From Verrucomicrobia subdivision 3 bacterium UBA7542 (GTDB taxonomy: Bacteria; Verrucomicrobiota; Verrucomicrobiia; Limisphaerales; UBA11358), in the NCBI GenBank assembly GCA_002479245.1, contig DLMG01000351.1:1116-13394 (forward strand): a stretch of DNA of 12,279 nt. The letters are read 5' to 3'. Shown here in pieces: positions 1-12,279 of the stretch (the first letter of the stretch is position 1; each line of letters opens with the position of its first letter). Below the pieces are notes generated by a model. That model did no database searches and was not told the DNA's origin. It saw nothing but the letters and a program-made list of their open reading frames with translations. A program made the position numbers and the translations under genes.

Positions 1-488
1 GCGCTGGCCACGGTGGTGAGCTTGAACGCGCCCACGTTGCCGGTGCGCATCACGTGCGGCCCGGCGCACAGGTCAATGAAATCGCCGCTCTTGTAGTAGG
101 TGATCGGCTCGCCTTCGGGAATGTCTTCCAGGTTGCCAATCTTGAACTTGCTCGAATTGCCGGGACGCTCGCCCAGCGCGCCGAGCCGGCCGTTTTGCGC
201 GTCCTTCAGCGCCTGCTCGCGCGTGACGACGAGTTTCTCGAAGGTGTGGTTGGCTTTGATCTCCTTTTTCATCTCGGCCTCGATGGCCGGGAAATCCTCG
301 GGCGAGATGCGGTGCGAAAGTTCGACGTCGTAGTAAAAGCCGTTTTCCACCGCCGGGCCGGAGGCGAACTGGGCGTCGGGCCAGAGCTTGACGATGGCGG
401 TGGCCATGACATGGGCGGCGGAGTGGCGGATGCGCTCCAGCTCGGTCATTTTCGCGCGGTCGTCGAGTGTCTTGCGTTCGGATTCCAT
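1..488 (-). CDS. thrS: Threonyl-tRNA synthetase, N-terminal editing part (partial)
   Basis: This is the N-terminal 162 residues of a threonyl-tRNA synthetase, the cytoplasmic enzyme that charges tRNA-Thr; the rest lies beyond the left edge. Translating the minus strand from the ATG at 488 gives the N2 editing domain: the HxxxH pair (H22, H26 in RHSAAHVMA), the GPAVENGFYYD segment, and the DLCAGPHV motif with C141 and H145. These match the four residues that clear mis-charged Ser-tRNA in this family. The protein starts directly in the editing domain, so the usual N-terminal TGS domain of about 60 residues is absent. The frame upstream reaches a stop at 546-548 without an ATG. No clear Shine-Dalgarno precedes the start; Met14 (ATG at 449) is an alternative. 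The identity is clear; the exact start is less so. Confidence 0.95.
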   Translation of the reverse strand, partial: MESERKTLDDRAKMTELERIRHSAAHVMATAIVKLWPDAQFASGPAVENGFYYDVELSHRISPEDFPAIEAEMKKEIKANHTFEKLVVTREQALKDAQNGRLGALGERPGNSSKFKIGNLEDIPEGEPITYYKSGDFIDLCAGPHVMRTGNVGAFKLTTVAS

Positions 489-500
489 AGCTTTTTTATA

Positions 501-532
501 ACGCAAAGACGCAAAGATGCAAAGGCGCAAAG
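501..532. repeat. Octamer tandem repeat, four units
   Basis: There are four head-to-tail octamers: acgcaaag, acgcaaag, atgcaaag, gcgcaaag. They begin 13 bases outside the synthetase start codon. The pattern resembles the short tandemly repeated sequences scattered between genes in several bacterial phyla. No function is known to me. The tract could vary in copy number by slippage and would lie in the 5' leader of thrS. Confidence 0.75.
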
Positions 533-900: not shown

Positions 901-2031
901 TTACGGCCAGGTCCAGGAGTAGGGGAAACTCAGCCGGTAAAACCACTGCGGACCGGAATTGGTGACATAGATCGTCTGCGTCGTGTTGGAACTGACAAAG
1001 GTGACATTGGTCGTCCAGCTCGGCATCGCAAGATTCGTGCAGCCAAGGACCAGGCCATTCTGCCCAATCGGAACGTTGGCCACAACCAACTGGTTGCTGC
1101 CATTGAGTGATGTGATATTGCTGATTTGCACCGGCGAGATGAGTTGCTGAGTGATGTCGGCCAGCACCGCATGGAGCTTCGCGGTCGGGTCCGTTGGATC
1201 CCAAAAAATGTAGTTTGTGCCATAGCCATTGATGGATGCGCTTGGAAAGCCGTAATTCACAGCAGTAACGGCATCAATGCTCACTCCATTATAGAGGGTG
1301 TTGGTCAAACCATAGGCAGCGGCGTTTGTCAGCACGTTGTCCAACAGGCTGAAAAAGTCCGGCTCGTAAATCGTAATCCCGGGCAGGGACGTTCCGGCCT
1401 GATTCAAAAGGGCGGTAAAAGCGGTGTTAAAACCAACGATCCTTTGGCGGATGAAACTCTTAGTGGCCGCAGGGTTATTGTCGTATTGCGGAGTCTCGGT
1501 AATATCCACAGCATTCGGCATGATCAAGGTGCGAGCGCCCTTGGCATAATATAGATTGGTGATGATGTTCCAATGGTTGGTCAAGGATTGGTTAATGGCG
1601 TTGGTCCACGTGACTATGTTCGTAGAAGGATAAATAGTACCCATATCATTGACAAAATCAGCGTCGTTGACCCATACGACAAACAGTGCGGTGGCCGCAT
1701 CCGGTGGCGCGGTAAAATGGTTGACATTCGTTACCAGAAGGGGACTGAAATCACGGTAGAATGACCAGTTGTTGGTTGAGTTGGACCAATTGACGTTGGT
1801 GATGGAATTGGCGCCCAGCCCCTGCTGCTGCGCCAGCACCTCAACCCAGACCCGGCCGTTGGAGTAGCGGTTGCCGTAGTAATTTGTCAGGCCTGATGTG
1901 TTGTTGGTCGTGGTGGAAACGCCGTCGCCAAAAATGTAGAGCGAGGTGAAGGCGGCTTGGGCCGAAAAAATGGCGGCGCCAAACAACAAAAATTCCACCA
2001 TGAATCGCACGGCTTTTTTCACGCTGCTCAT
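901..2031 (-). CDS. Secreted SGNH/GDSL-fold protein, catalytic Ser and His apparently lost
   Basis: This 376-residue protein has a signal peptide (MSSVKKAVRF then a hydrophobic stretch, cleavage near AQA-AF at 26/27), so it is exported. The body follows the plant/bacterial GDSL esterase pattern: block I FGDGVS (34-39), block II SNGRVW (57-62), block III VWVNDADF (119-126) and block V FWDPTDPT (276-283). In active enzymes block I is GDS and block V is FWDxxHPT; here the nucleophile is Gly37 and the His position is Asp281. It may therefore be a binding protein rather than an esterase, unless H287 or another residue substitutes. The C-terminal 75 residues end in FYRLSFP, like many secreted verrucomicrobial proteins, and may serve in sorting or as a separate domain. 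The start was chosen at Met25 of a longer frame (to 2103) because it begins the signal peptide. No strong ribosome site is visible. Confidence 0.8.
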   Translation of the reverse strand: MSSVKKAVRFMVEFLLFGAAIFSAQAAFTSLYIFGDGVSTTTNNTSGLTNYYGNRYSNGRVWVEVLAQQQGLGANSITNVNWSNSTNNWSFYRDFSPLLVTNVNHFTAPPDAATALFVVWVNDADFVNDMGTIYPSTNIVTWTNAINQSLTNHWNIITNLYYAKGARTLIMPNAVDITETPQYDNNPAATKSFIRQRIVGFNTAFTALLNQAGTSLPGITIYEPDFFSLLDNVLTNAAAYGLTNTLYNGVSIDAVTAVNYGFPSASINGYGTNYIFWDPTDPTAKLHAVLADITQQLISPVQISNITSLNGSNQLVVANVPIGQNGLVLGCTNLAMPSWTTNVTFVSSNTTQTIYVTNSGPQWFYRLSFPYSWTWP

Positions 2032-2493
2032 TCTACCGCATGCCGGATGAAAGTAAAGCCGGCCTGAATCCCGGCAGGAGTTGGTTTGAAATAAATCCAA
2101 CATATTCGCCTGTTTACATTACGGAAGACACCGGGCTTATCTTTCACAAACCGGTTCCTTGACGTTTTCAGTGGAATTAGCATTTACGCTCGCCCTCGCC
2201 CAGCCAGCTTCCATGGGAAGGGATTTCCTCAAACAAAATTACGCTTTGAACCCCGGAACCGTAGCCGCCGACGTAAGTCGGCGCTGACTTTCATTGGACT
2301 CAAAGTGCGCGGACTGACGTCCGCGGCTACGAGGTTCATGGAGAAGGACGGGGTGAGGGCGGACGTCCCGCCTGCCGCCATAACTCCGATGCAGATGCCC
2401 GGTTGCGCCCGGCGGCCGGGATTTGCTTGCTCCGGCGCGGCGTCCATGCGTATCTACGGCGTTCGTTCTGTTGTTGGAACCCATGAATCGGTG
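2032..2493. other. Gene-free divergent region
   Basis: These 462 bases lie between the starts of the minus-strand SGNH-fold gene and the plus-strand FadL-type gene, so promoters for both should be here. I could not pick a convincing -35/-10 pair on either strand. The stretch holds a paired-hairpin element (2260-2331) and a small GC-rich hairpin (2408-2420, stem cccgg/ccggg). The frame of the downstream gene is open back to 2305 only by reading through the repeat. Confidence 0.6.
2260..2331. repeat. REPIN-like element: inverted hairpin pair headed by GTAG
   Basis: Two 24-base arms (2260-2283 and 2308-2331) are inverted copies matching at 21 of 24 positions, with a 24-base spacer. The left arm folds as cgccgac gtaa gtcggcg and the right as cgcggac tgac gtccgcg. 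Two of the three differences are a compensating C-G to G-C swap at the same stem pair; the third is in the loop. GTAG lies outside each stem (2261-2264; complement at 2327-2330). GTAG is the other classical head tetranucleotide of REP elements. The element sits 163 bases upstream of the FadL-type start. Confidence 0.78.
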
Positions 2494-3768
2494 ATGATAG
2501 ACCGACGCAACATCTTGAGGCTGCTGGCAATGCTGGTTTCAGGAGCTTTGGCCTGGAAAGCTTCGGCGAATGGCTTCGGGCTGGCGGATCAGGATGCCTT
2601 TGCGACCGCGCGCGGCGAGGCGTTTGTGGCCACGGCGGACAATCCATCGGCCATTTACTACAACCCGGCCGGCATCACGCAGCTCGAGGGCAACGAGCTT
2701 CGGGGCGGCATTTATGGAATCTATCTCGACCCGAGCTACAGCCCCCCCAGTGGCGCCCAAAACAGCGGCCACACTTACCACAGTTCGGATCATCTCGCCG
2801 CGATTCCCCAGGTTTTCTACACCTACTCTTCCACGAACATCCCGGTGAGTTTTGGTTTGGGTGTTTATGCGCCTTATGGCGGGAGCATGAGCTGGCCACA
2901 GGACACCGGCTTCCGCACGGTCGCCACACAGGGCAAGTTGACTTATTTGACGCTCAATCCAGTCGTGGCGGTGAAGCTGCCGCTCAATTTTTCAATTGGT
3001 GCCGGATTGATGGTGAACTATGCGAACATGGATTTGGAACAAGGTCTTCGCCCTTTCGCACAACCTCTTGCCAACTTCTTCCGCTTTAAAGGTGACGGTT
3101 GGAGTGTGGGTTACAATCTGGGTCTGCGCTGGCAGCCGATTGACCAAATTTCATTTGGCGCGACCTTTCGCAGTTCGGCGGCTGTCACTTTGAATGGCCA
3201 CACGGAATTCGAACAGCAACCGCTCATTCAGACCACACAGCTGCCCGCACACATGGATTTTGAGTTTCCCTTGACCGTTGTGTGTGGTCTTTCGTACCGG
3301 CCGACGCCAAAATGGAATCTGGAGTTTGATGCCGATTACACGGATTGGAGCAGCTTCGGAAAGACAGCCATCTATCAACAAGGAAACCCGCCGCTAGGCG
3401 GGCCCCAAAACCCTCCGGTGACACTCAACTGGCAGGAGAGCTGGATGTATGAGTTGGGTGCGACGCGGTATTTTGACAACGGCTGGCACGCGAGCGCCGG
3501 GTTCGTTTATAATGAGAGCTCCGTGCCGAATGCGTATTACACCCCGTTGGCGGCGGATCTGGATCGTTATTTCTTCAGCGTTGGAGCCGGACACAAAGGC
3601 AAGCGTTTCGACTTCGACATTGCCTATCAGCTCGGCTATGGCCCCACCCACACGGTTACCGGCAGCACCCCGTCATCAACACCCGGAATTGGATCCAACC
3701 AGAACGCCAACGGAAATTATGATTTCATCAGCCACGCCGTAATGCTGACGGTGGGAATGCATTTCTAA
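2494..3768 (+). CDS. FadL/OmpP1-type outer-membrane channel (copy 1)
   Basis: This 424-residue protein is a member of the FadL/OmpP1/TodX family of outer-membrane beta-barrels, which let long-chain fatty acids and other hydrophobic compounds diffuse inward. A signal peptide (MIDRRNILRLLAMLV..., cleavage near KASA-NGF at 25/26) is followed by the family's N-terminal hatch region with YYNPAGITQL (55-64). The rest shows alternating polar/aromatic strands such as YRPTPKWNLEFDADYTDWS, and it ends in Phe (VGMHF), as barrel proteins do for assembly by the Bam complex. The length is normal for the family. ATG 2494 was chosen because it begins the signal peptide; GTG 2491 is possible and no clear ribosome site is visible. 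It is clearly related to the gene at 6677. The substrate is unknown. A seven-C run lies at 2742-2748. Confidence 0.9.
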   Translation: MIDRRNILRLLAMLVSGALAWKASANGFGLADQDAFATARGEAFVATADNPSAIYYNPAGITQLEGNELRGGIYGIYLDPSYSPPSGAQNSGHTYHSSDHLAAIPQVFYTYSSTNIPVSFGLGVYAPYGGSMSWPQDTGFRTVATQGKLTYLTLNPVVAVKLPLNFSIGAGLMVNYANMDLEQGLRPFAQPLANFFRFKGDGWSVGYNLGLRWQPIDQISFGATFRSSAAVTLNGHTEFEQQPLIQTTQLPAHMDFEFPLTVVCGLSYRPTPKWNLEFDADYTDWSSFGKTAIYQQGNPPLGGPQNPPVTLNWQESWMYELGATRYFDNGWHASAGFVYNESSVPNAYYTPLAADLDRYFFSVGAGHKGKRFDFDIAYQLGYGPTHTVTGSTPSSTPGIGSNQNANGNYDFISHAVMLTVGMHF

Positions 3769-3850: not shown

Positions 3851-5176
3851 TCACAACAAATTCAGAAACGAGGAACGAAGCCTGTGATTGATGTCTATGT
3901 TCGCCAGGAAGGAAAACATAGTGTTTTTTCTTGGCGGCAGGAACCGCTTCGCCATGGATGAATATGAATAGAAATCATGAAGCGCATTGTATGACAAGAC
4001 ATATCCGGGAGTCTGATTGTCGGCATACTTGATTCCGGTGTGATTCATTTTTTCCCCGAGCTCTCTTTTATGGAGCCACCAATCATCAAAGAACAAACGG
4101 TTGTCACTTTTTAATCTTTGATAAAGTGGAGTTCCGGGAAACGGACAAAGGGGAAAGAATGCCGCAAAGGCTGCTTTTTGTTCGACCAGGAAGTTCACCG
4201 TGTACTTGATCCCACCCATTGTGTCGTTATCGAATCCCACAATGAAGCTGGCGTAACACGCGATGTTGTATTTATTCAAAAGTCGGAAGACATTTTTGTA
4301 CTCTTCAGGCTGGTTGAATCTTTTATTTACACTTCTGAGGACTTGAGGATCCTGACTTTCGAAACCGACATAGCAATGGAAACATCCGCTTTCCGCCGCC
4401 AGCGCTACAAGCTCAGGCTTGGCATGGATTAAGGTGTCCATCTGGCAGTGATATTTAATTTGCAGCGGTTTGATGGCCTTGAAGAATTCCTTCGCCCATT
4501 TGTAATCAGCAGTCAGATTATCATCAACAAAGAAAAAGGTTGTCGCCTTGCTTTGTTTGATTTCAGCGATTATATCTTCAATCGGTCGATGACGTATTTT
4601 TTCTCCGTAAAACCTTGTTGTTGCACAAAAATCGCAGTTGTGGGAGCACCCCCGCCCTGTTTGTATGGGGATCAAGGGCATCGGGTTGAAAAATGAACGG
4701 ATATACTTCTGCGGGTCGATCAGGTCGAACCGTGGATAAGGCAGGTTATTCAGAGAGTCTCTGGCGGGTTTCTCATATCGCTTTTTCAACCGGTTGTTCT
4801 CGAAATCTTTGATCAATTCTGGCCAGGTATCCTCGGCCTCTCCAACAACTATCGCATCAGCACGCAGGGCAGCTTCGTCTGGAACAGCGGTTACATGAAT
4901 TCCACCCATCACAACCGGCACACCTCGTTTCTTATACTCGGCGGCAACATCATAAGCTCTTTCCGCACTAAAAGTTTGAACGGTAATTCCGACCAGATCC
5001 ACTTTTTCATCATAATCAATATCCTCAACGCTTTCTTCAACAACAGAGACACGATGATGATTGGGAACCATCGCTGCCAGGTATCTGATGGTAATGCAGG
5101 GGACAAAAACCTTTTTCGTCTTCACCAGGTTTCCATGCTCATCATAGAACGAAGGCAAGATAATTTTTATATGCAT
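3851..5176 (-). CDS. Radical SAM enzyme with N-terminal B12-binding-like domain
   Basis: This 441-residue protein belongs to the COG1032-type radical SAM enzymes. Residues 1 to about 130 form a cobalamin-binding-like Rossmann region (VDLVGITVQTFSAERAYDVA, then VVMGGIHVTAVPDEA, then VVGEAEDTWPEL). I do not see the DxHxxG motif that would place cobalamin in base-off form. The [4Fe-4S] motif CxxxCxxC is complete at C177, C181 and C184, after GRG, followed by FFFVDDNLT and FIVGFDNDT. The C-terminal 60 residues (after TPGYVLSYN) are not recognised. An AGGA ribosome site (5185-5182) lies five bases before the ATG. The gene is clearly AT-richer than its neighbours (42% GC over four sampled 60-base lines, against 57% over four from flanking genes), suggesting acquisition by transfer. 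Substrate unknown; methylation or lipid modification are options. Confidence 0.88.
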   Translation of the reverse strand: MHIKIILPSFYDEHGNLVKTKKVFVPCITIRYLAAMVPNHHRVSVVEESVEDIDYDEKVDLVGITVQTFSAERAYDVAAEYKKRGVPVVMGGIHVTAVPDEAALRADAIVVGEAEDTWPELIKDFENNRLKKRYEKPARDSLNNLPYPRFDLIDPQKYIRSFFNPMPLIPIQTGRGCSHNCDFCATTRFYGEKIRHRPIEDIIAEIKQSKATTFFFVDDNLTADYKWAKEFFKAIKPLQIKYHCQMDTLIHAKPELVALAAESGCFHCYVGFESQDPQVLRSVNKRFNQPEEYKNVFRLLNKYNIACYASFIVGFDNDTMGGIKYTVNFLVEQKAAFAAFFPLCPFPGTPLYQRLKSDNRLFFDDWWLHKRELGEKMNHTGIKYADNQTPGYVLSYNALHDFYSYSSMAKRFLPPRKNTMFSFLANIDINHRLRSSFLNLL

Positions 5177-5733: not shown

Positions 5734-6582
5734 ATGAAAAACCTGCGCGGACAAACAGCGATACTCACCGGAGCTTCCGGCGGGATCGGTCGCCATATAG
5801 CCCCCGCATTGGCCAAGGCGGGAATGAATTTGGTGCTCGTGGCATTCCCCGGGATAGGACTTGATGAAGTCTGTTCGGCAGTGACAAGGGAGGGCATCAA
5901 AGCCATAGCTTTGGATCTCGATCTTCGCGATCCTAAACAGCGGCAGCACATGGTATCAGCAGCGCTCAAGGAATTTGGTCAAGTTGACGTGCTGGTCAAC
6001 AACGCGGCAGTGGAATTCACCGCTGTTTACCATGAGCTTTCGGAGCAGCAAATCAAAGACGTGCTCAGTGTGAATCTGGAAGCCCCGATGATGCTAACAA
6101 AGGCTGTTTTGCCGGAAATGCTGCGCCGGGGGCGTGGGCATATCGTAAACATTTCGTCATTTGCCGGCAGATTGGGGCCGGGTTTTCAGGAACCCTACGC
6201 GGCCACCAAAGCGGCGCTGACAGCATTTACGTACTCGTTACGAGGAACTTACCGCAGGACCGGAGTGAGCGCTTCCGTGGTTTGCCCCGGCTTTGTTGAG
6301 GCGGGGATTTATTCGCGGCTGAAAGCGCAGCTTGGACGGCCAGCACCGGGTCTTTTTGGCGCGAGCGTGTGCCCCCCCCAACGCGTCGCGCGAGCAGTAT
6401 TACGTGTCATTGAACGCGATCTGCCCGAGGTCTTCGTGAACAAATACCCGGTTCGTCCGGCGCTTGCGTTGTATGTTTTGTCGCCTTCCCTGGGCGCATG
6501 GATTACGGACAAAATCCTAGGCACGCACGATTTTTTCCAGTCTGTGGCTGAAGCTCAAAAGCGCGGCCGGCGAAAGCTTTAA
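5734..6582 (+). CDS. Short-chain dehydrogenase/reductase (SDR)
   Basis: This 282-residue classical SDR is an NAD(P)-dependent oxidoreductase, probably cytoplasmic. The glycine-rich cofactor motif TGASGGIG is at 12-19, NNAA at 89-92, the structural Asn at 114, and the catalytic Ser142, Tyr155 and Lys159 are in place (ISS, then YAATK). CPGFV follows at 184-188. The 100-residue C-terminal part, ending in a hydrophobic RPALALYVL segment, is like SDRs acting on acyl or lipid substrates, but the substrate cannot be read from the sequence. It lies 94 bases before the second FadL-type gene on the same strand, so the two may be co-transcribed. No Shine-Dalgarno is visible before the ATG. An eight-C run (6372-6379) inside the gene would break the frame if it slipped. 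Confidence 0.9.
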   Translation: MKNLRGQTAILTGASGGIGRHIAPALAKAGMNLVLVAFPGIGLDEVCSAVTREGIKAIALDLDLRDPKQRQHMVSAALKEFGQVDVLVNNAAVEFTAVYHELSEQQIKDVLSVNLEAPMMLTKAVLPEMLRRGRGHIVNISSFAGRLGPGFQEPYAATKAALTAFTYSLRGTYRRTGVSASVVCPGFVEAGIYSRLKAQLGRPAPGLFGASVCPPQRVARAVLRVIERDLPEVFVNKYPVRPALALYVLSPSLGAWITDKILGTHDFFQSVAEAQKRGRRKL

Positions 6583-6676: not shown

Positions 6677-7933
6677 ATGAAAACAAACCGGGGTGAAGCG
6701 GCAAAATTTTTCCCGATAATCATTCTTTGCGGGACAACCTCGACGCTTTGGGCGGGAGGATTTCGTCTGCCTGATCAAGATGCTTTTGCCACTGCGCGTG
6801 GCGAGGCATTCGTCGCCACAGCGGACAATCCATCCGCGATCTATTACAATCCGGCGGGCATCACTCAACTCGACGACAGCAATGTCCGAGTCGGAATGTA
6901 TGGCATCTACCTTGATCCCAGTTACCGAAACCCGGTCACTTCCAGGTCCTACGAGATTGAGGATAAATTCGATGCCATTCCCCAACTTTTTTATACTTAC
7001 AGTCTAAAAGATAAAGATTGGCCGATCAGTTTTGGACTTGGCATCTATTCCCCTTATGGGTTGAGCGAAAAATGGCCCCAAGACACCGGATTTCGCACCG
7101 TTGCCACCGAAGGCTCGCTGACCTATTTCACCATCAATCCAGTCATCGCCTACAAACTGCCTTGGAATCTTTCCATTGCGGCGGGTTTGATGGTGAACTA
7201 TGCGAAGATTGATTTGCAACAAGCTGTCTACGACCCGAATCCAGACGCCGATTTGTTCCGGTTCAAGGGCGATGGCTGGGACGTGGGCTACAATCTCGGC
7301 GTACTCTGGCAGCCGCAGGAAAAAATTTCCCTCGGCGCAACTTTCCGCAGCGGCGCCACCATGAAATTCAACGGGCAGACAGAAACGACGGCCCCGCTTT
7401 TGGGCTATCCCAGTCCGCATTCCAGTCCCGCAAATGCGGATTGGCCATTTCCACTGGAAGCGGCCTTCGGCATTTCCTACCGGCCCACACCCAAATGGAA
7501 TCTGGAATTCGACGCGGACTATACCGATTGGAGCACGCTGGGAACAGTTAACCTCAATCAAACTGCGCCGCCATTTTTCATGTCTTCACCGTCCCCCATA
7601 ACACTGGACTGGGAATCCAGTTGGTTTTTTGAATGGGGCGTCACACGCTATTTTGACAGCGGCTGGCATGTGAGTGCCGGCTATATTTTCAATGAAAATT
7701 CCGTTCCCGACGCGCATTACACGCCATTGGTGACGGATATGGACAAGCATTTCTTCAGTGTCGGGACCGGATTTAAAGGCAAACAGTTTGATTTCGACGT
7801 CGCCTACCAGTTTGGTTACGGCCCCCCCCGCACCGTGGCGGGCAGCGCGCCCTCGTCAGCCGGACAAACAGCGGACGGCAACTACAATTTTTTCAGCCAA
7901 GCCATCGCGGTGTCGGTTGGATGGCATTTTTAA
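6677..7933 (+). CDS. FadL/OmpP1-type outer-membrane channel (copy 2)
   Basis: This 418-residue FadL/OmpP1-family barrel is a paralogue of the protein at 2494. A signal peptide (MKTNRGEAAK then FFPIIILCG, cleavage near LWA-GGF at 26/27) leads into a 33-residue stretch (33-65) identical to copy 1, including the hatch motif YYNPAGITQL. Further shared blocks include FRFKGDGW, YRPTPKWNLEFDADYTDWS and HYTPL; the protein ends in Phe (VGWHF). The family moves long-chain fatty acids and other hydrophobic molecules across the outer membrane. The two genes differ widely at the DNA level, so the duplication is not recent. It follows the dehydrogenase by 94 bases and precedes the methyltransferase by 176 bases on the same strand. 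An eight-C run lies at 7822-7829. No clear ribosome site is seen. Confidence 0.92.
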   Translation: MKTNRGEAAKFFPIIILCGTTSTLWAGGFRLPDQDAFATARGEAFVATADNPSAIYYNPAGITQLDDSNVRVGMYGIYLDPSYRNPVTSRSYEIEDKFDAIPQLFYTYSLKDKDWPISFGLGIYSPYGLSEKWPQDTGFRTVATEGSLTYFTINPVIAYKLPWNLSIAAGLMVNYAKIDLQQAVYDPNPDADLFRFKGDGWDVGYNLGVLWQPQEKISLGATFRSGATMKFNGQTETTAPLLGYPSPHSSPANADWPFPLEAAFGISYRPTPKWNLEFDADYTDWSTLGTVNLNQTAPPFFMSSPSPITLDWESSWFFEWGVTRYFDSGWHVSAGYIFNENSVPDAHYTPLVTDMDKHFFSVGTGFKGKQFDFDVAYQFGYGPPRTVAGSAPSSAGQTADGNYNFFSQAIAVSVGWHF

Positions 7934-8109: not shown

Positions 8110-9648
8110 ATGATGCACATTGCACACGCAATGAACCTGACTTTTAATGGTGATGGACATGGAAATGGGAACGGCGCGAATGGTTTGTTGGAGCAACCTC
8201 CCCAAAAGGCCGCCAACCCGCCCGCCGTTGCGCCTTCATCCGATGTCAAGGAAAGCCGGGTAACATTTCAGACGGTGGAGGGCATGGAGTTGCGCGGCAC
8301 CCCGGTGCGCGTGACACGGCACGCAACCGTTTTCGAGCTATACAATCCGAGTGTCACGCCGCGACTTTCCGAGGCGCTCGGCGAGTTCCAAATCATTCTG
8401 CAAGGGCGGACGATTTATTCCGGTCGCGCGGTGGTTCGCAGTGTGGTGGACGCGGGAACAAAAATCGTCTGTGAAGCAACGCTCAACGAATCAAGCTGGG
8501 CGGATTTGAACCTGGTGCTGGCGGTGGAACGGGAAGGCGGACTGGCGCAGGAATTCAAAACGTTTCTACAGGAATGGCAAAAGCTTTACGGGGTGTCGCC
8601 GGAATTCAAGATCGTTATCACCGACATGCAAACCTTTCTACATGATTTGCAATTGTGGCTGGAGCGGGTGGAGTTGGGAATTCGGGCTTTGGCCAGGGAC
8701 GAGCGGGAAAAATTCGAGCAGAAAACAACTCAAGAAATCGCTCAAGCAGTAATCCCGTTGATTGATGCGCTCTTTGAAAAATTCGAAGACATCGCCAAAG
8801 ACATCGAGGGGGAACAAAAGGCCGCTCATGCCCACTATATGCGGCAACATCTTCATCATCTCGTTTTGGCCGCGCCGTTCGCGCATCGCACTTTTGAAAA
8901 ACCGCTCGGTTACGCCGGCGATTACGAAATGGTGAACATGATTCTCCGCTGCGGTTACGAAGGGAACTCCTTGTTTGCCAAGATCGTCCACAACTGGTTT
9001 GTCAGGCAACCACCGGCGGCGGCGCATCGCAACCGGATAAAATATCTCACAGAGCACATTGAATTGGAAGCCGACCGCGTCGCCCGCGCGGGTGGCACGG
9101 CGCGTGTTTTCAACTTTGCCTGCGGCCCGGCGGTTGAAGTACAGAATTTCCTCCGCTCTTCATTTAGAGAAAATGTGGAATTGACGCTCGCAGATTTTAA
9201 TGGCGAGACCCTCGAATATGTCAGTAAGGTGCTCGACAAAATTAAAAATCTTTCCCGACCGCGGACGACCGTTCATATTCAAAAAAAAACCGTTTACCAA
9301 CTGCTCAAAGAGAGCCACAAATTAATGGATGTGGAGAAATCGCAATATGACTTCGTATATTGCGCCGGGCTTTTCGACTATTTGCCCGACCACACTTGCA
9401 AACAGTTGATGGATATTTTTTATAAATTCGTCGCTCCGGGCGGGCTGGTGGTGGTGACCAATGTCGAGCCATCCAATCCATTGCGCCACGGTATGGAACA
9501 TTTGTTGGACTGGCATCTGATCTATCGCAAGGAACCGGATTTACGCGCACTGCGCCCCACTCACGCAATCGATGATTATGTTTCCGTTCGCGCGGATTCG
9601 ACAGGCGTAAATTTGTTTATGGAAGTCCGCAAACCCGCCCATGACTAA
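8110..9648 (+). CDS. phcB: PhcB-like SAM-dependent methyltransferase (3-hydroxy fatty-acid methyl ester synthesis type)
   Basis: The 512-residue protein has three parts. Residues 1-45 are a Gly/Asn/Pro-rich leader. Residues about 50-130 are a beta-rich domain (VTFQTVEGMELRGTPVRV, then IYSGRAVV) that looks PilZ-like but lacks the c-di-GMP motifs RxxxR and D/NxSxxG. After a helical linker (145-255) comes a class I methyltransferase: LGYAGDYEMVN (266-276), SAM-binding FNFACGPAVEV (334-344), acidic D362 in LTLADFN, and YDFVYCAGLFDYL (413-425), then PGGLVVVTN. This layout matches proteins annotated as PhcB, which in Ralstonia methylates a 3-hydroxy fatty acid to make the quorum signal 3-OH PAME or 3-OH MAME. 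The kinase and regulator that follow support the assignment; the kinase gene overlaps its end by eight bases. The signal structure here is unknown. The start is uncertain among ATGs at 8110, 8113 and 8131. Confidence 0.8.
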   Translation: MMHIAHAMNLTFNGDGHGNGNGANGLLEQPPQKAANPPAVAPSSDVKESRVTFQTVEGMELRGTPVRVTRHATVFELYNPSVTPRLSEALGEFQIILQGRTIYSGRAVVRSVVDAGTKIVCEATLNESSWADLNLVLAVEREGGLAQEFKTFLQEWQKLYGVSPEFKIVITDMQTFLHDLQLWLERVELGIRALARDEREKFEQKTTQEIAQAVIPLIDALFEKFEDIAKDIEGEQKAAHAHYMRQHLHHLVLAAPFAHRTFEKPLGYAGDYEMVNMILRCGYEGNSLFAKIVHNWFVRQPPAAAHRNRIKYLTEHIELEADRVARAGGTARVFNFACGPAVEVQNFLRSSFRENVELTLADFNGETLEYVSKVLDKIKNLSRPRTTVHIQKKTVYQLLKESHKLMDVEKSQYDFVYCAGLFDYLPDHTCKQLMDIFYKFVAPGGLVVVTNVEPSNPLRHGMEHLLDWHLIYRKEPDLRALRPTHAIDDYVSVRADSTGVNLFMEVRKPAHD

Positions 9649-11038
9649 CACCACCCCTGCATTTTCCAATCCTGATTTCCTGAAGGCGTTTACCGCCCAC
9701 GAACAGCAAGAGCGGATTAGCACCGGCAAAGTGGCCTCGCTGCTGGTCGTGGTTCTGATGCCCCTCGGCTCGATCATGGACTGGCAAGTCTACCACCCGC
9801 AGCGCTGGTATTTTCTCGAACTGCGAATCCTCTGTTCCATCTTGGCGGGTGCTCTCTGGTATTTGCACACGACCGAGTTTGGATGGAAACACTATCGCCG
9901 CCTCGGCATTACCATTGCTCTTCTTCCGGCGTTCTTCATGTGCTGGATCATTGACGCGACACAAGGACCAATGGCCGGCGCAACTTCGCATTATTATGCG
10001 GCGCTAAACCTGATCTTGCTCGCCGTGAGCGTCGTGGTGCGCTGGAACTTTTGGGAGTCAACATTTTGTGTGGTCGCGATCATTTTGATGTATCTGGCTG
10101 TCTGCGGCTTTCACTGGCTGGAACCGTCTCCCAAGGAGTTTTTCAACGATCTCGCCAACAACCTTTATTTCCTGGCGCTGACCGGCATTATCGTGGTCAC
10201 CGGCAACCAGCTTTTTAACAAGCTGCGCCTTCGGGAATTCACCCTGCGATATGAACTGGACAAAAGCCGCAAAGCGCTGGAAGCCAGCCTCGTGCAACTC
10301 AAGGAAAACGAGATGCAACTGGTCCAGTCCGAAAAACTGGCTTCGCTGGGGCGCATGAGCGCGGGCATCATTCACGAGATCAACAACCCGCTGAACTTCG
10401 CCATCACCGGCCTCTTTACCCTGCGCAAAAAGGGCCAAAACCTTGCCCCGGAGCAACAGAAGGATTACGCCGAGGTTTTGACCGATGTCGAAGAGGGAGT
10501 CAAACGGGTGAAGACCATTGTCTCGGATTTGCGGATGTTTACGCATCCCGAAACCGAGAGCCGGGATGAGGTGGAGGTGGCGGAGGTGGTCGCTGCGGCG
10601 TTGCGGTTCTTCGGCAATGAATGCAAAGACAAAATACAGGTCAACCAGCAGATTGCCGGGCATCAGACGATCTGGGCGAACAAGAACAAATTGATCCACC
10701 TGGTCACGAACCTGCTGCAAAACTCGATTGATGCGTTAAAAACGAAGCCGTTCCGGGATGAAAAACCGACCATCCGGATTGAAGGACGGATTGAGAACGG
10801 CAGCAGCATTTTGTCGGTTCGCGACAACGGTCCGGGCATTGCCCCGGCCGATGTGGACAAGATTTTCGACCCCTTTTTTACCACAAAAGACGTGGGCGAA
10901 GGAATGGGGCTGGGGTTGAGCATCTGCCACCGCATCGTGCAGGAGTCCGGGGGAAGGATTTCGGTGAAAACGGAGCCGGGGAAATTCTGTGAATTTACGC
11001 TGGAATTCCCCGTCAGGACAAATCAGGCGACCAACTGA
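9641..11038 (+). CDS. phcS: PhcS-like membrane sensor histidine kinase
   Basis: This 465-residue inner-membrane kinase has six hydrophobic segments (about 30-47, 56-77, 87-107, 117-135, 140-160 and 173-192), then a helical linker and a complete kinase core. The core has the H-box IHEINNPLNF with phospho-acceptor His245, the N-box NLLQNSIDA (357-365), the G1 box DNGPGI (395-400), the F-box FDPFFTT, and the G2 box GEGMGLGLS (419-427). The six-helix sensor without a periplasmic domain is the plan of PhcS, LqsS and CqsS, which detect hydrophobic autoinducers in the membrane. Its ATG lies inside the last codons of the methyltransferase gene (eight-base overlap), so translation is probably coupled. 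The regulator gene follows after nine bases. Class and partners are well supported; ligand specificity is inferred from the neighbour. Confidence 0.85.
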   Translation: MTNTTPAFSNPDFLKAFTAHEQQERISTGKVASLLVVVLMPLGSIMDWQVYHPQRWYFLELRILCSILAGALWYLHTTEFGWKHYRRLGITIALLPAFFMCWIIDATQGPMAGATSHYYAALNLILLAVSVVVRWNFWESTFCVVAIILMYLAVCGFHWLEPSPKEFFNDLANNLYFLALTGIIVVTGNQLFNKLRLREFTLRYELDKSRKALEASLVQLKENEMQLVQSEKLASLGRMSAGIIHEINNPLNFAITGLFTLRKKGQNLAPEQQKDYAEVLTDVEEGVKRVKTIVSDLRMFTHPETESRDEVEVAEVVAAALRFFGNECKDKIQVNQQIAGHQTIWANKNKLIHLVTNLLQNSIDALKTKPFRDEKPTIRIEGRIENGSSILSVRDNGPGIAPADVDKIFDPFFTTKDVGEGMGLGLSICHRIVQESGGRISVKTEPGKFCEFTLEFPVRTNQATN

Positions 11039-11047
11039 AAGACGGAC

Positions 11048-12279
11048 ATGGAAAATCTCTACGACTATAAAAAATTTGCCATCCTCTACGTGGATGATGA
11101 GGAGAAGTCTTTAAAATACTTCACGCGCGCCTTTGAGGATCGGTTTCGGATTTTGACGGCGGCCAATGCCCAGGACGGCTTCAAACTGTTCGAACAGCAC
11201 GCCGACGAAATCGGCCTGCTGCTGACCGACCAGCGGATGCCCGGGGAAAAAGGCGTCTGGCTTTTGGGACAGGCGCGGCAATTGCGCCCGCAGGTTTTGC
11301 GCATGCTGGTCACGGCGTACACGGACGCGGACGCCGCCATCGCCGCCGTCAACAGCGGCGCGATTTACAAATACATCACCAAACCATGGGACCCGCCGCA
11401 ATTCGAACTCACGCTCAAGCAGGGCCTGGAATTTTTCATGGTGCAGACCGAACGCGACCAGTTGCTCCGTGAAAAAATGTCCGTGTTGCGCAACATGATG
11501 ATCGCCGACCGCATTGTGAGCCTCGGCCTGCTGGCCGCCGGTTTGAGCCATCATATTCGCAACTCGCTCGTCGCGGTAAAAACCTTTCTCGACCTCGCGC
11601 CCGGGAAAATGGCCGAGGAAAAAACGGATTTGAACAGCCTGCGCAACCCCGAATTTTGGAAGGAGTATCACCAGAACGTCCAGTCACAGATTGAAAAAAT
11701 CAACAGCCTGCTCAAAGACCTTTGGACCGCGTCGGAAAACAATGCCTCGTTGCAATTCGCCGATGAAGTGCTGCTGCACCAGACCGTCAGTGCGGCACTG
11801 GCCCCGCTCAAGGACCAATTCGCCGCCCGGCGGATCGAAATTGAAAACAAGATTCCCGATTCGTTGCCCGCGCTGCATGTGGACCAGCCGAAATTTTGCC
11901 GGCTGTTTGAATTATTACTGAAGGACGAACTGGACATGCTGCCCGCCGGCAGCCGCGTCACCTTGTCGGCGGAATTGCAGAATGCCGGGGCCAAACCGGA
12001 AATCGTCGTTCAAATCAGCGACAACGGGCCGGGCCTGCCGCAGGAGGCGTTGAGTGTCATCTTCGATCCGTTTGTCGTGAGTGACAGCGTGCCGTCCGAA
12101 TACGGCATTAATCTGATTGCCTGCTTTTTCATCGTCCACCATCACGGCGGCAAAATCGAAGCCCAAAGCCAGCCCGGCCACGGCACGACGTTCACCCTTC
12201 GCCTCCCGCTCAAACCCGAACCGGTCATTTCATCGCCGGACGACACGGAATTCCTCCAAAAAGCGCTGCTGAACGAAAA
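11048..12279 (+). CDS. phcR: PhcR-like response regulator fused to a histidine-kinase-like domain (partial)
   Basis: This gene runs off the right edge; 410 codons are visible. The N-terminal receiver domain (about 8-125) has the acidic pair D16/D17, phospho-acceptor D61 in LLTDQRMPG, T89 and K112 in ITKPW. After a linker comes a dimerisation/H-box region, SLGLLAAGLSHHIRNSL, with likely phospho-His168, then an ATPase-like region with DNGPGL (325-330) and FDPF. A receiver followed by a kinase core is the unusual plan of PhcR, the partner of PhcS. The C-terminal ATPase looks weakened: the N-box reads LFELLLKDELD, with Asp where the Mg-binding Asn should be, and the G2 box is SEYGINL instead of GxGLGL. 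The residue after the phospho-His is His, not Glu. The gene starts nine bases after the kinase stop and is surely in the same operon. Confidence 0.85.
   Translation, partial: MENLYDYKKFAILYVDDEEKSLKYFTRAFEDRFRILTAANAQDGFKLFEQHADEIGLLLTDQRMPGEKGVWLLGQARQLRPQVLRMLVTAYTDADAAIAAVNSGAIYKYITKPWDPPQFELTLKQGLEFFMVQTERDQLLREKMSVLRNMMIADRIVSLGLLAAGLSHHIRNSLVAVKTFLDLAPGKMAEEKTDLNSLRNPEFWKEYHQNVQSQIEKINSLLKDLWTASENNASLQFADEVLLHQTVSAALAPLKDQFAARRIEIENKIPDSLPALHVDQPKFCRLFELLLKDELDMLPAGSRVTLSAELQNAGAKPEIVVQISDNGPGLPQEALSVIFDPFVVSDSVPSEYGINLIACFFIVHHHGGKIEAQSQPGHGTTFTLRLPLKPEPVISSPDDTEFLQKALLNE

Follow-up and report, generated by a model that had tools for sequence, protein, structure and literature searches.

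A conserved phcB-phcS-phcQ-like gene cassette in Verrucomicrobiota

The phcBSRQ operon is found in Ralstonia, Cupriavidus and other Betaproteobacteria. In Ralstonia, according to the passages cited, PhcB makes a methyl ester, PhcS autophosphorylates at H230 on sensing, and PhcQ binds and protects PhcA (PMC11960443, PMC8578825, PMC13320629). Herein, we describe a three-gene cassette in a 12,279-base stretch of DNA (the window) from Verrucomicrobia subdivision 3 bacterium UBA7542, covering positions 1116-13394 of the 13,734-base contig DLMG01000351.1 in an assembly (GCA_002479245.1) that is 69.8% complete and 0.26% contaminated. Like the phcBSRQ operon, the cassette has a methyltransferase, a sensor kinase and a PhcQ-type receiver protein in the same order and on the same strand, and the homology takes in the N-terminal region of PhcB as well as the membrane region of PhcS. 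Unlike that operon, it has no separate PhcR, and its third protein retains a degenerate kinase domain, whereas Pfam sees none in PhcQ; the verrucomicrobial loci also add a receiver-GAF-kinase gene (18 loci), an upstream FadL and a kinase of hybrid length (19 of 41 loci). The Lqs/Cqs alpha-hydroxyketone systems, too, combine a membrane kinase with a receiver protein, as the cassette does. Their synthase is the pyridoxal phosphate-dependent LqsA and not a methyltransferase, and no such gene was seen among those named in the window. The Lqs components are given as LqsA, LqsS and LqsR in the cited part of a report on that system (PMC10653808). We conclude that the window holds a real, conserved phcB-phcS-phcQ-like cassette, which is not quite a phcBSR operon. 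The original prediction had read the locus as phcBSR; the Phc family and the gene order of that reading stand, but the third gene is PhcQ-like rather than PhcR, and its kinase domain is degenerate.

The first gene of the cassette (positions 8110-9648, forward strand) encodes a PhcB-like class I methyltransferase of 512 residues, which is collinear with PhcB after about 45 extra N-terminal residues. It is followed on the same strand by a PhcS-like membrane sensor histidine kinase of 465 residues (9641-11038) and by a PhcQ-like protein (11048-12279) that joins a receiver to a degenerate histidine-kinase domain and whose frame is still open at the window end. The methyltransferase and kinase frames share 8 bases (9641-9648) and a 9-base gap (11039-11047) separates the kinase from the third gene, so that the packing described earlier for the three genes matches the open frames exactly. 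The third gene extends past the window, and the corresponding proteins of relatives are mostly 420 residues long. A run of Ns starts directly past the window at contig position 13395, and 257 bases remain beyond it; a contig frame opening at 13630 encodes 35 residues that match the beginning of the fourth gene in a related locus (L026) at 89% identity. The original prediction had suggested looking for a phcQ-like regulator downstream of the cassette: the PhcQ-like gene is the third gene itself, and it is this resemblance to a fourth gene that is seen past the window.

A Pfam scan gave only generic domains for the cassette proteins, and therefore a comparison with phc operons was made. The methyltransferase matched only weak class I methyltransferase models, under the Pfam cut-offs (best E value, 1.4e-4). 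The kinase showed HisKA and HATPase domains after an N-terminal stretch of about 200 residues that is hydrophobic in a hydropathy plot, and the third protein showed receiver, HisKA and HATPase domains. The hydrophobic stretch is compatible with the six helices previously ascribed to the sensor kinase. Precomputed labels put PF20968 on this membrane part, which our own Pfam scan did not return. A PilZ-like domain had been suspected by eye at the N terminus of the methyltransferase and was rejected, since no such model appeared in the Pfam scan up to an E value of 10. Scans for promoters and terminators returned counts near those of shuffled DNA (3 versus 3.6 and 10 versus 8.4, respectively).

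Relatives were searched in 59 genomes, including that of the window, and 43 of these carry the methyltransferase, at 44 loci; two short methyltransferase fragments (G015:C149 and G026:C79) among 46 rows were left out before counting. Forty-one of the 44 loci, the window's own included, were read with their flanks, leaving out G007:C324, G019:C84 and G038:C319. The comparison set comprised the best 80 phc loci listed from a scan of named genomes. All 80 are betaproteobacterial by title, a consequence of a query alignment headed by a Paraburkholderia protein and of listing the best 80. With our own cut-offs, a phcR-like protein of more than 340 residues was present in 58 of the 80 loci and a phcQ-like protein of more than 300 residues in 77, and gene sizes agreed with those stated for Ralstonia PhcB, PhcR and PhcQ in the cited part of PMC8578825. 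The 22 loci without a full-size phcR were left out of the PhcR motif and score comparisons. Motif counts for the third protein were based on 32 complete rows of 37, the 5 incomplete ones being dropped.

The neighbourhood is conserved, and the best matches of the proteins are phc proteins in six of six betaproteobacterial genomes; the original prediction had named unrelated best matches, or no conserved neighbourhood, as the findings that would speak against it. In every one of the 37 loci having all three genes, these were adjacent, in the same order and on one strand. The remaining loci of the 41 consisted of three cut by contig ends and one (L046) without the third gene.

In a forward search of six betaproteobacterial genomes, the window methyltransferase had a single match per genome, which was phcB in all six (274-316 bits, 35-38% identity, residues 48-509). 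In a 62-row alignment, it was 33-37% identical to 17 betaproteobacterial proteins. Across 119 full-length rows, 51 columns were at least 97% identical, and in the two groups these are spread across the N-terminal part as well as the methyltransferase core. Relatives carry the automatic Joint Genome Institute (JGI) name "extracellular factor (EF) 3-hydroxypalmitic acid methyl ester biosynthesis protein". Among the 120 methyltransferase matches listed, the named relatives were mostly Limisphaerales and other Verrucomicrobia, which bears out the view that the host is probably a verrucomicrobium, outside the Proteobacteria. Judged by these names, the cassette is assigned to a verrucomicrobial order, Limisphaerales.

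Several matches bore other names. Acidobacteria-type names occurred on 2 of the 120 methyltransferase matches listed (P0024 and P0101), and among the kinase matches two names were "Candidatus Paceibacterota" and "Clostridia". The genomes behind P0024, P0101 and the kinase matches P0156, P0199 and P0204 are labelled Sulfopaludibacter, Acidoferrales, Clostridia or Paceibacterota; these close relatives under foreign labels may reflect mis-binned contigs or transfer. On a plasmid of Pseudanabaena sp. PCC 7367 (L024:6028-8647), a short methyltransferase matching the C-terminal half of the window protein faces, in convergent orientation, the genes of a sensor kinase and a receiver protein, with a Tn3-type transposase close by. 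In the Enterobacter ludwigii plasmids NZ_CP134637.1 and NZ_CP134634.1, the methyltransferase half matches, at 25.9% identity, within an annotated type I polyketide synthase gene.

The window kinase had 25-77 matches per betaproteobacterial genome, and the best was phcS in six of six (173-206 bits), with alignments starting at residues 12-28. Other kinases among the matches listed scored at most 103 bits and aligned from residue 189 or later, save for one 41-bit match from residue 92; the 103-bit runner-up aligned from residue 219. The PhcS homology thus takes in the membrane sensor part. Conversely, when Cupriavidus necator PhcS was used as the query, the best match was the cassette kinase in six of six verrucomicrobial genomes; in three of these the cassette kinase is a long hybrid, and the top-scoring stretch was its second kinase unit. 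The H-box histidine H245 of the window kinase aligns with H231 of C. necator PhcS, and the ATP-site motifs look intact by eye. Hybrids were defined by a length of at least 700 residues; apart from the 19 such loci, the kinase was short in 21 (two of them cut) and intermediate in one. Two hybrids were scanned, and each consisted of a first kinase unit followed by a receiver and a second kinase unit. The hybrid kinases are about 900 residues long (e.g., L025:6570-9278), and the second unit can outscore the first against PhcS. The automatic JGI name for relatives of the kinase is "PhcS".

The third protein had PhcQ as its best match in six of six betaproteobacterial genomes, through the receiver and the linker (residues 11 to about 168). 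In the reverse search, PhcQ found the third protein as its best match in six of six genomes at 132-145 bits, the next match scoring at most 66. The third protein scored higher with PhcQ than with PhcR in all 37 loci, and that of the window did so in 56 of the 58 betaproteobacterial operons having both. A profile comparison revealed a post-receiver linker common to the third protein and PhcQ (E value, 3e-9); the profile match to the PhcR tail begins later and spans the kinase fold (E value, 1e-16). Many relatives of the third gene are named "probable response regulator PhcQ" by JGI, and the best 120 listed were 79-94% identical. The receiver residues D16, D17, D61, T89 and K112 were invariant in all 32 complete relatives. 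In the kinase domain, the N-box asparagine was missing in 32/32 third proteins and present in 54/58 PhcR proteins, and the second glycine of the G2 box was likewise missing in 32/32 and present in 56/58. The H-box histidine was kept in 27/32; the residue after it was histidine in 30/32 third proteins and glutamate in 58/58 PhcR proteins. An arginine of the linker (R157 in C. necator PhcQ, R155 in the window) was invariant in 32/32 and 77/77 rows. R154 of PhcQ was changed in adaptive mutants, according to the cited part of PMC6989110; that site could not be placed exactly here.

We therefore read the third protein as PhcQ-type, still bearing a decayed kinase domain that, from its motifs, looks dead. 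Leaving the fourth gene aside, no second receiver-kinase that could be a separate PhcR with an active kinase domain was found in the 37 loci. The third gene as a PhcR ortholog, to the exclusion of PhcQ, was rejected on the reciprocal PhcQ matches, the higher PhcQ scores and the lost kinase motifs. Searching the three proteins against PhcB, PhcS and PhcR, as had been proposed, thus returned the first two as best matches, but the third prefers PhcQ. PhcQ may have passed through a decayed-kinase stage, or PhcQ and PhcR may stem from one such gene. A receiver tree placed the verrucomicrobial receivers with PhcQ and not PhcR (93/82); 7 other receivers fell in the same part, and, with 120 columns and an unsettled bootstrap, the tree was not used as support. 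Among the betaproteobacterial loci, a receiver-only protein occupies the phcR position in L023 and in most of L065-L081 (Paraburkholderia and one Burkholderia sp.; 134 residues in L023, short frames elsewhere), and the kinase part of PhcR seems to be lost there. In 4 of the 80 loci (L076, L087, L113 and L129), phcQ was seen but no phcR beside it.

The window has a FadL/OmpP1 outer-membrane channel gene (PF03349; positions 6677-7933, forward strand) 176 bases upstream of the methyltransferase and on the same strand. The original prediction did not mention this neighbour, which bears directly on the inference of a signal. The FadL family occurs in 48 of the 59 genomes, with one to three matches in each. 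In 34 of the 44 loci a FadL gene stood no more than 3 kb from the methyltransferase; it was upstream in every case, sharing the strand in 18 and lying on the opposite one in 16. The other ten loci comprised one with a FadL at 5.0 kb and nine with no FadL on the same contig. The 34 linked loci span 11 families, including 10 of the 14 other methyltransferase-bearing families of the order. Given one to three copies per genome of some megabases, we estimate that such closeness would be expected by chance in fewer than 1 locus in 100. FadL was the commonest non-cassette neighbour (29 of 43 clustered loci), the next family, a GDSL lipase, being present in 11. A broader sample of 240 genomes from the phylum held 12 further ones with a methyltransferase match at an E value of 1e-59 or better, and FadL was present in 10 of these 12 (in one weakly) versus 90 of the 240 overall.

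Co-occurrence of the two genes was also considered as proof of their coupling, and was set aside. Of the 59 genomes, 43 had both, none had the methyltransferase only, 5 had FadL only and 11 had neither (Fisher p = 1.6e-8). This association is weakened by controls, because linked genes go missing together: in the genus, incomplete assemblies alone would account for 4.0 methyltransferase absences, versus 7 seen (p = 0.09). On a gyrB tree of 54 of the 59 genomes, five having no usable gyrB, the methyltransferase absences were scattered, requiring 12 changes. The linkage of FadL is better evidence than the joint absence.

Other genes recur around the cassette. The receiver-GAF-kinase gene, the domains of which were scanned in one locus, follows the cassette in 18 loci. 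In five loci (L032, L055, L056, L060 and L063), an alpha/beta hydrolase gene on the same strand lies within 60 bases of the methyltransferase start or overlaps it. These hydrolases have 278-312 residues, L056 holding a 173-residue piece. One of them had an esterase as its best solved match, with BioH, a methyl-ester esterase, among its generic matches. In an operon that makes an ester, an enzyme cleaving esters would suit turnover of the signal, and our guess is that it could be a signal esterase. Elsewhere in the window are a second FadL/OmpP1 gene (2305-3768, forward strand), whose true start is probably within the open frame; a peripheral short-chain dehydrogenase gene (5734-6582, forward strand), of a family present in 4 of 43 clustered loci; a peripheral GDSL-type lipase-like gene (901-2103, reverse strand), under the Pfam cut-off, of the family counted above in 11 loci; a gene for a B12-binding radical SAM protein (3851-5176, reverse strand), below the cut-off of every matched NCBIfam model; and, from reading the translation, the start of a threonyl-tRNA-synthetase-like gene (3-530, reverse strand).

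Homology, best-match relations, conserved gene order, lost kinase motifs and FadL linkage together suggest a working scheme for signal chemistry, the role of FadL, the phosphate route and the output. The methyltransferase would methylate a long-chain fatty acid, probably a 3-hydroxylated one, at its carboxylate, and the product would be a diffusible, hydrophobic signal that passes the outer membrane via the neighbouring FadL channel. The membrane kinase would sense it and autophosphorylate at H245, and the phosphate would then move to D61 in the receiver of the third protein. Like PhcQ with PhcA, the third protein would act by binding a partner, its kinase-like part presumably serving in dimerisation or docking and not in catalysis. 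The fourth protein (receiver-GAF-kinase), whose gene starts just past the window, may modulate the process. On balance, we lean towards a cassette for producing and perceiving a long-chain fatty-acid methyl ester by this whole scheme.

Several observations weigh against this scheme. Identity to PhcB is only 35-38%, hence the substrate could differ. A change of PhcB R22 alters or tunes the Ralstonia system, according to the cited part of PMC6989110; this residue (C. necator numbering) corresponds to R62 in the window and is arginine in 79/79 betaproteobacterial rows and in 23/40 verrucomicrobial ones. The best match of PhcR within the cassettes is also the third gene (35 of 37 loci), and therefore descent from a common PhcQ/PhcR ancestor is possible. 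No FadL was found around the 80 betaproteobacterial phc loci, 65 of which had full 7.5-kb flanks, by BLAST with 12 or a profile of 33 verrucomicrobial FadL proteins, a search that a far-diverged FadL could escape; the known Phc system therefore needs no nearby FadL. The FadL link loosens beyond the order, with FadL within 7 kb in at least 4 of the 12 genomes and absent from 2. The proteins scanned revealed no gene for a DNA-binding output regulator next to the cassette, and no PhcA equivalent was identified; LysR-type proteins are present in 40 of 40 genomes, 1-9 in each, and were not told apart, the PhcA sequence not being among the comparisons.

The same protein families could serve another signal, with the methyltransferase making a different hydrophobic methylated compound and a Phc-like system working through a lineage-specific molecule. 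The protein departs from PhcB at more than 60% of residues, in three of six genomes the membrane part of PhcS is outscored by its kinase-only part, and in Ralstonia the signal type tracks the sequences of PhcB and PhcS, as the cited part of PMC8578825 has it. The 51 near-invariant columns across the N-terminal part and core of both groups speak against a different signal, as does FadL, which fits a long-chain lipid, and we judge this alternative rather unlikely. It is less likely still that the cell monitors itself instead of signalling to others, the methyltransferase and kinase gauging its own fatty-acid or imported hydrophobic supply and FadL being a regulated uptake channel. Such an arrangement would suit the prominence of FadL among the neighbours and its frequent placement on the opposite strand (16 of 34), as well as the esterase-type hydrolases abutting the cassette in five loci; however, pairing a dedicated methyltransferase with a cognate membrane sensor is how the known signal synthase and receptor are arranged, and would be superfluous for plain nutrient sensing. 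Chance packing of a generic methyltransferase with generic two-component genes, in line with the generic Pfam domains, is contradicted by the order in 37 of 37 loci and the phc best matches in six of six genomes, and is highly improbable.

For the fatty-acid methyl ester cassette that we favour, a described parallel exists in Sinorhizobium fredii, where FadL takes up long-chain N-acyl-homoserine lactones (AHLs), according to the cited part of PMC9938287. In both cases an outer-membrane FadL would handle a long-chain signal, but the S. fredii system is an AHL system. More tentatively, Limisphaerales and scattered other Verrucomicrobiota might run a FadL-coupled form of signalling, in which a PhcB-type methyl ester passes the outer membrane through a dedicated FadL channel, is read by PhcS at the inner membrane and is relayed by a PhcQ-type pseudokinase; we hold this broader proposal to be possible but doubtful.

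Databases already label such proteins PhcB, PhcS and PhcQ, and recognition of the family is thus present in annotation pipelines; our literature searches found no publication describing Phc proteins in Verrucomicrobiota. New with respect to the known Phc system are the pseudokinase-type third protein, the extra kinase and the FadL neighbour. The cassette suggests that lipid-based cell-to-cell signalling extends past the group in which it has been studied, and its conservation in another phylum offers a testable signal class. For the question of how such hydrophobic signals get through the outer membrane, the linked FadL offers an answer, and a clue to how PhcQ works comes from the pseudokinase-type third protein. 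If the proposal is true, these bacteria would possess a quorum-sensing system with an outer-membrane signal channel built into the locus, and Ralstonia PhcQ may derive from a receiver-kinase with a decayed kinase domain, a stage retained here.

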